From Affinundibacterium seohonense (GTDB taxonomy: Bacteria > Pseudomonadota > Gammaproteobacteria > Burkholderiales > Burkholderiaceae_D), in assembly GCF_014284305.1 (NCBI RefSeq), contig NZ_JACOFW010000021.1, positions 1 through 64,000 on the forward strand: a stretch of 64,000 nucleotides of DNA, written 5' to 3'. The notes beneath the pieces are model-generated. The model was given only the letters and a program-made list of their open reading frames with translations. It was not told where the DNA came from and ran no database searches. The position numbers and the translations under genes were made by a program. Numbering within the stretch: the stretch's first letter is position 1; every line of letters begins with the position of its first letter. Positions 15,484 through 21,651 of this stretch are shown here, one piece after another.

Positions 15484-16163
15484 TCAAAAACCATACTCAA
15501 AATTCAACCTCACCAAGCGATAAGGCCTCTGAGTATCGATCCTCGTGGTGATGAATTCCCTCTCATAAAACTCAAAACCAGTGGCATAAGCTCGTTTCAG
15601 CACATTATCTATACTGAGACGTAGTTGCGTCTTTTTATCAAACTTCCAAAGACCATACATATCGAGATTGGTTTGCGCTTGATGTAATTCACGTTGACTC
15701 AAATTCACCAATAAAGGATTGCCATCGCGATAGCGCAGACTCGCACCGAGGCTCAAAGGAAAATCTTTGGCGGTGTAGTCAATCGTCGAATTTGCTGTCA
15801 ACGATATTGGAGTGAGTCGATTATCTGGTTTTGGCAAATTCGACATCGTCGTCCAGCTTTTAGCTACGGAGAAACTCACATTCAGATCTGGTGCCGCAGC
15901 GATAAATCGCTTCAATGGAAACTGAGTATCCAAGCTAACAGTTTTACTAAACGCTTCACCAGCATTCACAAACTGTCGCCACCACTCATCGCCAATTTTT
16001 GTGAGATCTTGCCTGTGCAAATCGTCTATCTTGCGAATAACTGAGCGCACGTTGTAGTTCCACTTATCAGAGCCATTATGTTCATACGCTGCTTCGATTG
16101 ACCACGCCAATTCAGGTCTGAGGCTGGGGCTAGCAAGGGGGTTAGGATTTTCTAACAAGTAGG
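15484..16163 (-). pseudogene. TonB-dependent receptor, C-terminal remnant
   Basis: About 225 residues matching only the last part of an outer-membrane TonB-dependent receptor: NPNPLASPSLRPELAWSIE, then beta-strand repeats, FVNAGEAFSKTVSLDTQFPL, and ending LVRLNFEYGF with the terminal Phe typical of beta-barrels. The signal peptide, plug and most of the barrel are missing. Homology begins about 16155, immediately after the aqpZ terminator; the open frame runs on to 16200 only by reading through that hairpin (IHQRPWWIFF). The 5' part was therefore deleted and the break point placed behind aqpZ. Not expected to be functional. Confidence 0.8.
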
Positions 16164-16164
16164 C

Positions 16165-16195
16165 AAAAAAAATCCACCAAGGCCGCTGGTGGATT
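16165..16195 (-). terminator. aqpZ terminator
   Basis: On the minus strand AATCCACCA (16187-16195) pairs with TGGTGGATT (16171-16179) and is followed by a T-run (16165-16172 as A on +). Located about 50 bp after the aqpZ stop. Confidence 0.85.
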
Positions 16196-16246
16196 TTCAT
16201 TGCCGTTCAAACGGTGTCGTTTAAAAACAAGTTTAGCTCTGAGGAC

Positions 16247-18434: not shown

Positions 18435-18934
18435 CTCTCCTAAAATTTACATCGATATTAATCGTCAAATCTGTGTAAAGGATTCTAACTGAGAACACAA
18501 TGAGACCATTGGGCAACTGCGGATAAATCAGTAGTCGACGGCAAACAATCACGTTGCCGCCAAGACTGATCATGATTTGTGCTTATTGCGGTGGTATGAA
18601 ACGTATCCTACAAACGCGAATCGAATCTCGATATCGTCCCAATGCCAAGAATTTATTTATTTCAGATGTGGTTCCTACCAACAAGGCGATCATCACGTAA
18701 GTGTTCTAGTCCCCCAAAAAAACCGTAGAAGGATGGCCAGATAAACTCGTCTTTACATTAAGAAAAACCAGTCAATAGGAGGTAAAGGTGAAGTGAGGAA
18801 ATCACCAGAAAAACGACGTGAATTTCAAACTCAGATAGAACTCACCAAAGTCAAAGCAGCGACATTCCATCCAACCGTGTACGGAAGCAAAGGCCATTTG
18901 CATAAGCCAACGCCAAACACATACAATTAAATCG
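18435..18934. other. Region beyond the last integron cassette
   Basis: About 500 bp between the GNAT gene and the degenerate terminal attC. No confident gene. One small frame (18793-18930) with a perfect ribosome site is listed separately. A 42-codon frame at 18572-18700 has one CxxC pair but no ribosome site. Confidence 0.4.
18793..18930 (+). CDS. Possible small ORF with strong ribosome site
   Basis: A 45-codon frame starting with GTG at 18793, ten bases after a perfect AGGAGG (18777-18782). The product is basic and hydrophilic and matches nothing I know. It runs opposite to the cassettes and ends 4 bp before the last attC-like core. It could be an unrelated remnant at the end of the array. 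Low confidence. Confidence 0.25.
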   Translation: MRKSPEKRREFQTQIELTKVKAATFHPTVYGSKGHLHKPTPNTYN

Positions 18935-19000
18935 GACTAGCACAACAAACAGCTCAGATCGTGGCCGCTTTGCGTCACGATCTAAGCTCACTCGCTAGGC
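18935..19000 (-). other. attC-like site 3, degenerate cores
   Basis: Directly after the third cassette gene, the minus strand reads GCCTAGC ... GCTAGTC about 66 bp apart. The inner arms AGCTTAGATCGTG and CACGATCTGAGCT are complementary except for one base, giving the hairpin of an attC. Both core sites deviate from RYYYAAC/GTTRRRY (AG for AA in the first), so recombination is probably weakened. This marks the last visible cassette. Confidence 0.6.
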
Positions 19001-19007
19001 CGCATGT

Positions 19008-19358
19008 CTATTTCATCCATTCTGGTTTTCGCGTGCCACGGCAGAATCGTTTGGTATCAGCTTTGTCTTTCGGTTCAATATGCTCATCCAGTTCAGTGAG
19101 CTTTTTCATGATTCTTGGATTGGCGCGATACTTCTTCTTCAGAGTAGCAAGCTTTGAGTCAGTACCCGAGCAAGACTGGCAGATCGCCCAGTTGATGTCG
19201 GCTTGACGCTCTTCATCGTACCCATACTCGCCGCGCCAGTGATCGCACGATTCGCGCTGCTCAAGAAAGGTAGAAACATCCTTTGGTAGCGCCGACGACG
19301 CGGCCCCCGCGGTGTGGTAGGGCAACACAACCAATAGGATGAGGAAGAGGCTCTTCAT
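19008..19358 (-). CDS. Integron cassette 3 gene: secreted protein of unknown function
   Basis: A 116-residue protein with a signal peptide (MKSLFLILLVVLPYHTAGAA) and a mature region with four Cys residues (ESCDHW, ICQSCSG, RFCRG). No family recognised. It begins 9 bases after the cassette boundary core (TTAGGC CGCAA ATG) and ends just before attC-like site 3, the arrangement expected of an integron gene cassette. There is no dedicated promoter, so expression would depend on read-through from upstream cassettes. Confidence 0.7.
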   Translation of the reverse strand: MKSLFLILLVVLPYHTAGAASSALPKDVSTFLEQRESCDHWRGEYGYDEERQADINWAICQSCSGTDSKLATLKKKYRANPRIMKKLTELDEHIEPKDKADTKRFCRGTRKPEWMK

Positions 19359-19363
19359 TTGCG

Positions 19364-19618
19364 GCCTAACGTAAAAATGAACGGCGGGAAGCGTCGGGAT
19401 CGATTGGCAAGTTAAACATCATTTTGCTGGCGTCACAAATTTTAATCGCCACCAAAAAGTAAAGAGCTGCAAAACTAAGCTCCGATGGACCTTTCCATGG
19501 CTGCGCTTAGTCTCACCGTCAAACGGGACGTTAACGTTGATTTGAAAGGCGCGCGCGCCGATCAATAAGTTTTAGAAAAACGCATGTTCGCGCGTCATTT
19601 TCGAAAGTCATGTTAGGG
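19364..19618 (-). other. Candidate long attC of cassette 2 (about 255 bp)
   Basis: The minus strand runs from CCCTAAC (19612-19618 on +), overlapping the stop of cassette gene 2, to GTTAGGC (19364-19370). The ends are complementary beyond the cores (AAAATGACGCGCGAA against AAAATGAACGGCGGGAA read from the other end), and an inner hairpin ACTAAGC...GCTTAGT lies near the middle. Known attC sites are usually under 150 bp, so this may be an attC enlarged by insertion or a cassette with a long non-coding tail. An alternative inner core GTTTAAC (19410-19416) would give a 53-bp site but with poor arm pairing. Confidence 0.5.
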
Positions 19619-19957
19619 GTTAGCTAGTAATTTTGCATAGATTGCCATTCGCTCTTCTTCGGTTTGTGCGCTATCCCACCGATTAAGCAAGCTAAAGAAG
19701 TACAGCCTCTCGTTCATTGTCATACGCCCAATTCCGTGAATCGCTTTATCTCGAAACTGAGACCACAAACCGTAGATTTTTTTGTGTTCCATTTCACTTT
19801 CGATCCATGTATAACCGATGAAACGCTCGACGATGACCTCAAGTTCTTCGGTATTCTTCTCATCGTCTTTCCAGTTAGATAGCAAGACTGCGAGTTTCAA
19901 CACGACTGGATCGCTAGACGTTCGACTTATTGCGGCGACCAATGCATCAAGATCCAT
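19613..19957 (-). CDS. Integron cassette 2 gene: unknown protein
   Basis: A 114-residue soluble, acidic, mostly helical protein of unknown family. Its ATG lies 9 bases inside the cassette boundary (GTTAGGGG TTTCA ATG), where AGGGG can act as ribosome site, and its stop codon lies inside the first core of the next attC (CCCCTAAC). Both are hallmarks of integron cassettes. Orientation is away from intI, as required for expression from the attI-proximal promoter. Confidence 0.72.
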   Translation of the reverse strand: MDLDALVAAISRTSSDPVVLKLAVLLSNWKDDEKNTEELEVIVERFIGYTWIESEMEHKKIYGLWSQFRDKAIHGIGRMTMNERLYFFSLLNRWDSAQTEEERMAIYAKLLANP

Positions 19958-19963
19958 TGAAAC

Positions 19964-20032
19964 CCCTAACGTTTGCGGTAAGCGGACAAGCCAGCGGAGC
20001 TGGCGCAGGTCCGCTTGACCAATAGGTTAGGC
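19964..20032 (-). other. attC recombination site of cassette 1
   Basis: A canonical 69-bp attC. On the minus strand it opens with GCCTAAC (20026-20032), continues with GGTCAAGCGGACC, GCGCCAGC and the complementary GCTGGC and GTCCGCTTACC, and closes with GTTAGGG (19964-19970). This is the R''-L''...L'-R' layout bound by IntI as a folded bottom strand. Confidence 0.9.
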
Positions 20033-20518
20033 CGCATTGTTTGACGCACGCAACGATGTGGCGAGCGCTGTAAGAGCCTTGCGTGCTGCCTGCGCCACCA
20101 AAAAATCCCTTACGACCAACACCCAGACGAAGCCTACCAGCAGCGCTCCGAACGAAAAGGCGAAGGGATACAACCAAGACGATTGGCGCATGCTCCAGGC
20201 GCCGCCCAAAAAGAAGGGTATGAACACAAAGGATAGGGCGCTAATAAAAAGTAGCGCCACCGAGCGCTCCCAGAAATAGGGAACGAGTACCTTTTTGCTT
20301 GAGTGATCAAGCCAGCCGTAAATGTGCCGCCAACGATCCTGCCCGGGCATAGCGAGCGTGATCTCCGTGTTTGCCTTCGGACATAGATGTCCAAAAGCTC
20401 GCGCTTGGGAAACTGTCGCGTAGCTTGACGAGAACCCAAACTCTGTGAACTGTCCGCGCTGGCTCGAAATGTGCGAAACGTTCGAAACGGCGGTTAACAA
20501 TAGCGGCTGAAGATGCAT
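20027..20518 (-). CDS. Integron cassette 1 gene: membrane protein of unknown function
   Basis: A 163-residue protein with two hydrophobic segments around residues 88-106 (LLFISALSFVFIPFFLGG) and 117-137 (PFAFSFGALLVGFVWVLVV). No family recognised. The start ATG is 10 bases inside the attI/cassette boundary (TTAGGCAGC ATG) and the stop TAA is part of the attC core GCCTAAC. It is the cassette nearest attI and so the best placed to be transcribed from the candidate Pc promoter. Confidence 0.72.
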   Translation of the reverse strand: MHLQPLLLTAVSNVSHISSQRGQFTEFGFSSSYATVSQARAFGHLCPKANTEITLAMPGQDRWRHIYGWLDHSSKKVLVPYFWERSVALLFISALSFVFIPFFLGGAWSMRQSSWLYPFAFSFGALLVGFVWVLVVRDFLVAQAARKALTALATSLRASNNAA

Positions 20519-20521
20519 GCT

Positions 20522-20528
20522 GCCTAAC
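20522..20528 (-). other. attI-type core site
   Basis: GTTAGGC on the minus strand, at the junction between the intI upstream region and cassette 1. By analogy with known integrons, strand exchange falls between the first G and T (20527/20528). The full attI extends toward intI; accessory IntI-binding repeats were not resolved. Confidence 0.75.
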
Positions 20529-20551
20529 GTGATTTAATTTTACAAAATGAA

Positions 20552-20580
20552 AAGATACCCGAACATCAAAAAAAAGACAA
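20552..20580 (-). promoter_or_regulatory. Candidate cassette promoter Pc
   Basis: On the minus strand, -35 TTGTCT (20575-20580), 17-bp spacer, -10 TATCTT (20552-20557), pointing into cassette 1. Position inside the attI region and direction are those of a Pc promoter. Match to consensus is moderate. Confidence 0.5.
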
Positions 20581-20595
20581 TTTGTTTCTTTACGC

Positions 20596-20648
20596 TTGCA
20601 AGCCGCATGGATGCTGGTTATATTTCAATATACTGATTAAATATACAG
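20596..20648 (+). promoter_or_regulatory. intI promoter with LexA-type SOS box
   Basis: -35 TTGCAA (20596-20601), 17-bp spacer, -10 TATATT (20619-20624), then CTGATTAAATATACAG (20633-20648), which fits the LexA box CTG-N10-CAG with an AT-rich centre. The box lies over the expected transcription start, 10 bp before the intI ATG. SOS control of integrase genes by LexA is established in other integrons. Confidence 0.7.
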
Positions 20649-20658
20649 TTACAACCAA

Positions 20659-21651
20659 ATGGACAAAAACATCAATCCACCAAAACCAAAATTGCTTGAT
20701 CAGATGCGTGATCGTTTGCGGTACAAGCATTACAGTTTATCGACTGAAAAGGTCTACCTATATTGGTGTCGCTTCTACATTCGTTGGTCTGGGATGCGTC
20801 ATCCACTAGAAATGGGATCACCGGAAATTGAAGCTTTTTTGACTATGCTAGTCTCGGTTCGGCATGTCTCTGCAGCGACCCATAAGCAAGCCTTGAGTGC
20901 AATATTATTTTTATACAAAGAAGTACTTCAGATCGATCTACCTTGGATGCAGCAAATTGGTCGCCCAAAAACCGAACAAAGACTACCGACCGTATTAACA
21001 GCATTGGAAGTGCAGTCTGTATTGCGCAATTTAGAAGTGATCAATGCGGAACACGCACTCTTTGCTAAACTTTTATATGGCACAGGTATGCGAATTATGG
21101 AAGCCGCCCGACTACGAATAAAGGATATCGAATTTGACCGATCAGCCATCATCATTCGTGAGGGAAAAGGTGCCAAAGATCGTGTGGTCATGCTACCTGA
21201 AAGTCTCCGTGTCGATTTAATGGCGCAAGTCGCTCGCTGCAAACTGCGCTGGCAATCAGACACCGAACAACAAATGAGTGGTGTGGAAATGCCGTTTGCC
21301 TTGGATATAAAATATCCGCGAGCTGGGCATAGCTTGGCTTGGTTTTGGGTGTTTCCGCAGCATGTTTTTTCGACCGATCCGCGCAGCGGTATCATTCGAC
21401 GGCACCACCTTTTTCCACAAACATTTCGACGGGCATTTACGGCGGCTCTCAAGCAATCAGGAATTCATAAACCTGCTAGCCCACATACTTTGCGCCATTG
21501 CTTTGCAACTCATCTTCTACAATCAGGTTGCGATATTCGTACTGTTCAAGACTTATTAGGGCATGCAGATGTCAGTACAACGATGATTTACACCCATGTT
21601 TTAAAAATCGCTGGCGGAGTGCGCAGTCCGCTCGACAGTCTCGACAAATAG
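20659..21651 (+). CDS. intI: Integron integrase IntI (tyrosine recombinase)
   Basis: A 330-residue tyrosine recombinase with the full catalytic set: Arg in GTGMRI, Lys in [20 protein letters not shown] and the Tyr of MIYTH. It is an integron integrase, not a phage one, because it carries the IntI-specific insertion between the two catalytic regions ([33 protein letters not shown]) and the typical ends ([22 protein letters not shown]). It recombines attI with attC sites of gene cassettes. The gene diverges from the cassettes across attI, the usual geometry. No frame disruption, so likely functional. The ribosome site before the ATG is weak. Confidence 0.95.

Follow-up and report, generated by a model that had tools for sequence, protein, structure and literature searches.

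A 64,000-bp stretch of Affinundibacterium seohonense DNA (contig NZ_JACOFW010000021.1, positions 1–64,000; hereafter the window), taken from a genome (G000) of 4.87 Mb in 163 contigs, was analysed for an integron lying beside groESL. As listed in Table 1, the integron comprised an integrase gene (intI), an element of ~150 bp carrying the attachment site attI and a putative cassette promoter (Pc), and a series of gene cassettes with their attC sites. Copies of the attI/Pc element were found dispersed over this genome and the genus, and these copies and the cassette arrays behind them are the main subject here.

Table 1. Features of the groESL-linked integron (ORF, open reading frame; R1 and R2, two attC covariance models described in the text)
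Feature	Position (bp)	Strand	Evidence
intI, integron integrase, 330 aa	20659..21651	+	curated models, structure match, tree
LexA-type box CTGTATATTTAATCAG, intI promoter region	20633..20648	.	pattern; putative function
attI/Pc element, ~150 bp, repeated across genome and genus	20525..20674	-	conservation edges at -149 and core
putative cassette promoter Pc, TTGTCT-17 bp-TATCTT	20552..20580	-	sequence pattern in conserved block; predicted promoter activity
attI core GTTAGGC	20522..20528	-	pattern; conservation boundary in aligned copies
cassette 1: ORF 20027-20518 (163 aa, hydrophobic stretches by eye) and attC1	19970..20527	-	
attC1, 69 bp	19964..20032	-	E 5e-12 (R1), 4e-11 (R2)
cassette 2: ORF 19613-19957 (114 aa) and attC2	19535..19969	-	
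attC2, 90 bp	19529..19618	-	E 0.0017 with R2; repeat family in genus
probable cassette 3: without ORF of at least 60 aa on cassette strand	19370..19534	-	between two attC
attC3, 54 bp	19364..19417	-	E 0.0017 (R1), 2.7e-4 (R2)
cassette 4: ORF 19008-19358 (116 aa, signal-peptide-like start by eye) and attC4	18943..19369	-	
attC4, both cores altered (GCCTAGC/GCTAGTC)	18935..19000	-	by eye
sequence in common with another cassette contig	18558..18935	-	18558-19000 82% identical to G000:C105:8314-8765

The initial annotation, made from the sequence alone, had proposed an intact IntI-type integrase gene, and profile searches confirmed it: IntI passed the curated cut-offs of NF011946 (455 versus 435 bits) and TIGR02249 (434.8 versus 265 bits), and the solved structure closest to it in sequence was the integron integrase IntI4 (2a3v, E 1e-77). 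Residues R145, H276, R279, H302 and Y311, which we take to be the catalytic residues, were all present. Placement in a phylogeny had been named beforehand as a way to disprove the assignment. In a 60-row tree of integron integrases and four Xer rows (phage integrases not included), IntI sat with the integron integrases, apart from the Xer rows with support of 100/100. Its closest relatives were the integrases of genomes G009 and G014, a Herminiimonas contig, G002 and G008, and its clade consisted of Undibacterium-type and Herminiimonas integrases, separate from the clinical class 1-type rows.

Sites of attC type were searched for with two covariance models. R1 was built from 12 attC sites, all from other genera, and R2 from 95 matches that included other arrays of G000 and of the genus (window excluded). 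These models replaced an early attC scanner that was too strict and then noisy (13 matches versus a mean of 6 in shuffles). The canonical 69-bp attC of the initial annotation, for which a covariance search had been proposed as a check, was found by R1 at 53.9 bits. The three other R1 matches in the window at E up to 10 were attC3, the opposite-strand reading of attC1 (E 0.014) and one match at E 4.9. R1 did not find attC2 at E up to 10; this site was an 81–87% DNA repeat in at least nine genomes of the genus, with at least two further copies in G000. Neither model found attC4, a homologue of which with intact cores was present in the same genome (C105:8705–8765). Rfam gave no family at or above gathering score, either for the window or for four related loci. 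Two further attC-like sites had been listed originally; attC2 and attC3 were supported by the models, and attC4, read by eye, would make the further sites three. The three cassette ORFs were co-oriented and divergent from intI as described, but the cassettes probably number four, one without an ORF, because the ORF-less segment 19370–19534 has an attC on both sides.

The place of the integron was kept among relatives. intI also lay upstream of groES in five related genomes (G002, G008, G016, G032 and G061); an intI fragment with attC was found beside groESL in G023 and G060, and attC without intI in G030. These results supported a complete sedentary chromosomal integron in the window, as had been suggested. 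That reading was incomplete, however, since the attI was not unique and 14 of the 16 attC sites of the genome (E ≤ 0.05) lay elsewhere.

The cargo was as unrecognisable as first noted: the three window proteins had weak matches only in Pfam, NCBIfam, PADLOC and PHROGs, and no family above cut-off. Cassette 1 with attC1 recurred in another species (564 bp, 99.5% identical, G016:C57:689–1252), behind the attC of another cassette rather than an attI. The match started at the core and stopped inside the following core, and the flanks were unrelated. Because this identity was bounded by the cassette ends while the groEL-region DNA of the two genomes was 89% identical, exactly one cassette has been transferred, and recently. 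In a search made with cassette 1 only, no match was found in a plasmid set at E 1e-5 and no viral-contig relative was confirmed.

The repeated unit began at about codon 4 of intI, took in the intI promoter and the putative Pc, and ended with the attI core. Alignment of 43 copies (3 linked to intI and 40 others, called orphans here) showed that conservation started sharply 149 bp before the core and stopped at the core, which bore out the attI-type core marked in the initial annotation. A sequence model of the module matched 32 of 43 genomes of the genus at E ≤ 0.001, with 19 copies in G000, 18 each in G033 and G023, and 13 each in G027, G030 and G008. A sample of the family gave matches at E ≤ 0.01 in 20 of 116 genomes, 5 of the genus and 15 not; outside the genus most matches were weak, and only G103 had many (nine). 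Dispersed copies were also present in finished or nearly finished genomes (G014, 2 contigs; G015, 1 contig), and since they were spread over these chromosomes, the dispersal was not an assembly artefact. No sequence mechanism was found that would account for the multiplication of the element. An upstream hairpin or terminator was rejected as a general part of the element, as z fell below −2 in only 2 of the 8 examined. In G103, which belongs to another genus of the family (L220–L225), three of the nine copies (C44, C54 and C73) shared a unit of ~330 bp with a different left part, and in that genome the module may have spread independently.

Most of the copies checked stood without an integrase gene. 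By tblastn for IntI at ten G000 loci (14 elements), none was found at nine loci (13 elements). Among 20 loci in other genomes, 13 had none, 6 had an intI remnant (two in G024 and one each in G028, G027, G010 and G012) and 1 had an intact gene. A CTG-N10-CAG LexA-type box was present in 3 of 3 intI-linked copies versus 2 of 40 orphans. The intI-linked attI sites of G000, G009 and G014 finished in AAATTAAATCACGTTA; among the 40 orphans, AAATTA preceded the core in 36, the core was GTT in 30, and the full AAATTAAATC(A/G)CGTTA end was seen in 15. An intact intI thus adjoined an attI of the orphan type in G000, G009 and G014; the intI genes of G002, G008 and contigs C99 and C87 had other attI sequences. 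These results established a complete integron in the window and a dispersed attI/Pc module, mostly without intI where tested, whose conservation ended at the core.

Many of the orphan copies stood at the head of short cassette arrays. In nine annotated arrays an ORF was usually found close behind the element, and in many of them an attC followed the ORF. In five genomes (G000, G033, G027, G010 and G029), which together held 62 elements, 30 of 46 attC sites followed an element on its own strand at a distance of no more than 5 kb (expected 0.38), and none did so on the opposite strand. The counts per genome were 6 of 16 in G000 (two of the six being the window's own), 5 of 6 in G033, 13 of 13 in G027, 4 of 9 in G010 and 2 of 2 in G029. 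Omission of the six attC sites at the intact intI loci of G000 (C78, C99 and C87) left 28 of 40 associated with an element, and the four genomes outside the training of R2 gave 24 of 30 by the 5-kb same-strand count. With R1, 4 of 12 attC sites in G000 at E ≤ 1 were element-associated, three of them at orphans. In seven further genomes at least 17 of 33 attC sites were associated when arrays at intI loci were excluded; over all arrays, 1 of 43 was on the opposite strand, among the elements listed. Thus, attC sites downstream of the element on the same strand were far more frequent than chance would give.

Certain loci carried the element in several species with changing cassettes behind it. 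One such locus, downstream of a dsbD-like gene, had it in G000, G008 and G030. Here the homology that G000 shares with G008 continued through the element, ended at the core, where the cassettes differed, and resumed in an acetate kinase-like gene. G013 and G015 matched the dsbD side with no element among the matches listed, but divergence of the spacer was too great for the left edge of an insertion to be located. A second locus, between a VOC (glyoxalase-like) gene and a patatin-like gene, held one to four copies in G000, G002, G008, G030 and G032. A comparison of 36 proteins of this locus, covering all of these genomes except G002, showed that some cassette proteins were common to G008, G030 and G032 at 89–99% and others were not, and that the four G000 proteins matched none of the others. 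The dsbD-like, acetate kinase-like and patatin-like genes were named by eye.

Cassettes were also shared between groESL arrays and orphan arrays of the same genome. In G023 the groESL array and an orphan array (C92) had a 495-bp cassette in common at 99.2% identity. An 814-bp cassette of G030 (93.6%) immediately followed the orphan attI at dsbD and occurred again in the groESL array. In both cases homology extended from a GTT core to the next GTT core and the flanks were unrelated, so that cassettes of groESL and orphan arrays were joined at the same type of core. These shared cassettes are the strongest evidence that orphan and groESL arrays belong to one recombination system.

We consider a distributed integron likely, in which the window contributes the node with the integrase and the orphan attI copies serve as docking sites. 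IntI would recombine the attC of a cassette into the adjacent attI behind Pc; when induced by DNA damage, it would excise cassettes and insert them at any attI copy. The intI-less attI/Pc copies would then be docking sites round the chromosome, some of them at loci common to several species, and the Pc of each copy would express the first cassette there. The cognate IntI probably acts on orphan attI in trans. With a little less assurance, we expect that one integrase under SOS-type control serves up to about twenty attI/Pc sites in trans, which would make many cassettes promoter-proximal at once. Across the genus, genes appear to be captured at many sites rather than at a single one.

Several observations weigh against this interpretation. 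At the tenth G000 locus, on C105, a tyrosine-recombinase-like stretch (34–45% to IntI) lay ~3.7 kb from the element. The C105 element was also accompanied by the asnS 3′ end (gene named by eye) with its terminator, like the copy on C83 (398 bp, 89%; L121:2725–3121 and L147:6203–6599), and because the asnS end was shared, this copy suggests ordinary duplication together with flanking DNA. The check for flanking intI in G000 covered all but 4 of the 19 elements (C77, C80, C84 and C131:174569), and the intI-remnant test covered only part of the 40 copies called orphan. Two attC-bearing copies stood by an intI remnant (G010:C1 and G027:C5:162311). Only 21 of the 62 elements in the five genomes had a model-supported attC within 3 kb, and 41 did not; an ORF of at least 60 aa started near the core in 32 of the 40 orphans, a count with no chance control. 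R1 contained one wrong base pair (7-62 for 7-63), corrected in R2, and part of the training set of R2 came from arrays of G000, G002, G032 and G061. Rows L019, L020 and L039_9071 were left out of the integrase tree. No intI passed the cut-off in G033, G027, G010, G029 and G030, and G023 had fragments only; both cassette-sharing genomes (G023 and G030) are thus now without an intact intI, and in G002, G008 and G023 the intI or fragment at groESL has another attI type. Arrays in intI-less genomes may be stranded now, and cassette movement in G023 and G030 belongs to the past because intI is missing or in fragments there.

Some of these points would suit an ordinary sedentary integron accompanied by leftovers of the kind termed CALINs (clusters of attC sites lacking integrases), in which each orphan array lost its own intI and has no present docking function. 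The six tested copies that keep a 5′ remnant of intI, the several element-rich genomes without an intact intI, and the proposal in the IntegronFinder 2.0 paper (PMC9024848) that CALINs are degraded integrons all agree with such a history. It is nevertheless rather unlikely. The orphans share a left edge ~149 bp before the core and mostly lack the LexA-type box, which argues for a multiplied intI-less unit and not for many separate deletions; the same loci hold different cassettes in several species; and the 99.2% identical cassette in the groESL and orphan arrays of G023 points to recent movement. The element might instead be a promoter-bearing repeat resembling a miniature inverted-repeat transposable element, unrelated to recombination, intergenic by chance and co-opted upstream of intI. 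It is short and dispersed, and 10 of the 40 orphans have no GTT at the core, which also counts against the docking-site interpretation. This explanation is very improbable, as the right edge of the repeat is the GTT core from which cassettes start, its same-strand association with attC is far above chance, it runs on into intI wherever intI or a remnant exists, and one junction of an orphan core with its cassette is common to another array. Least probable of all is the recent arrival of a class 1-like mobile integron by horizontal transfer. Cassette 1 did move recently between species, but IntI groups with Undibacterium-type and Herminiimonas integrases apart from the clinical class 1 rows, intI lies upstream of groES in several species, and no transposition gene adjoining the integron was noticed when the ORF list was read by eye, no transposase search having been made.

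A distributed integron with docking sites resembles known systems in part. According to PMC9024848, integrons typically have one attI near the integrase, and attI sites outside class 1 are poorly described and undetected by IntegronFinder; attI heads of CALIN-like arrays would therefore be missed. The orphan arrays resemble CALINs as described there in being cassette arrays without a neighbouring integrase. Two attC sites each at C55 and C153 of G000, with no IntI by tblastn, place these two arrays among CALINs; the model did not reach that number of attC sites at every orphan. They differ in that the attI/Pc module heads the arrays, contrary to the usual picture of an attI-less CALIN, though not to its formal definition. 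The ilvD integron of Xanthomonas (PMC12444791) likewise has one intI at a fixed chromosomal place with unknown cassettes, intI decay in some lineages and other arrays at conserved loci. The Xanthomonas CALINs are attC clusters without intI for which the relevant part of that paper mentions no attI head, whereas many arrays here have their own attI/Pc. In the Delta-attI-type cassettes of class 1 and 2 integrons (PMC12901181), an attI sequence also occurs away from intI and is recombined by IntI. In those cassettes, which lie within mobile integrons, a partial attI replaces the attC at the 3′ end; here, the whole attI/Pc module (~150 bp) lies 5′ of the cassette ORF at the head of separate chromosomal arrays, and attC is at the 3′ end of the cassette where found. 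At secondary attG sites (PMC12901181, PMC12444791), too, cassettes are inserted away from intI in many parts of the chromosome. Such sites are described as diverging from classical att sites in sequence and structure, whereas the sites here are attI homologues with a putative promoter. Among the titles of the open-licence papers listed, none reported dispersed attI-headed arrays, and a report elsewhere is possible.

Cargo related to phage defence was present at some orphan sites. The first cassette at the C55 orphan (L122:8145–9549) was a two-gene Thoeris pair (ThsA, 4e-45; ThsB, 5e-15), and the start codon of ThsA overlapped the attI core in GTTATG. A nuclease-like gene was first behind the dsbD orphan in G000, and the candidate defence family PDC-S31 was found in orphan arrays of G030 and G025. 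The defence-family scan covered ten hand-picked array proteins, and no enrichment is claimed. Since some docking sites hold defence-like genes, these findings suggest a role for the orphan sites in swapping phage defence.

Two further integron integrases over the cut-off were encoded in G000, at C99:16543–17484 (L119) and C87:231610–232551 (L120). They were 90% identical in DNA over 1.1 kb and had their own attI type and attC, so that G000 holds three integrons. A segment of ~200 bp or longer with a LexA-like box occurred in G002, G000 (C99), G028 and G024 (L191:4425–4626 and L119:8743–8944, 98.5% identical to each other; also L154 and L179). It started at a GTT core, or at the expected core, behind attI or attC, had no Rfam match, and may be a cassette that has no ORF but an SOS-type promoter. 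Elsewhere in the window, an ORF of 238 aa at 15484–16200 matched an outer-membrane beta-barrel family in its C-terminal part alone (profile positions 211–408 of 408) and is perhaps a broken receptor gene.

In an integron with, typically, one attI by intI (PMC9024848), expression is likely for no more than the first few cassettes. If the groESL integron and the orphan arrays form one distributed integron, a multiplied attI with its promoter would lift the limit of one expressed front position. Present tools would class distributed arrays of this kind as CALIN debris, since they do not look for attI outside class 1. The idea can be tested directly in other genomes by looking in each genome for copies of its own attI that are not next to intI. 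If it holds, a share of the intI-less arrays in other bacteria may be working outposts and not debris.

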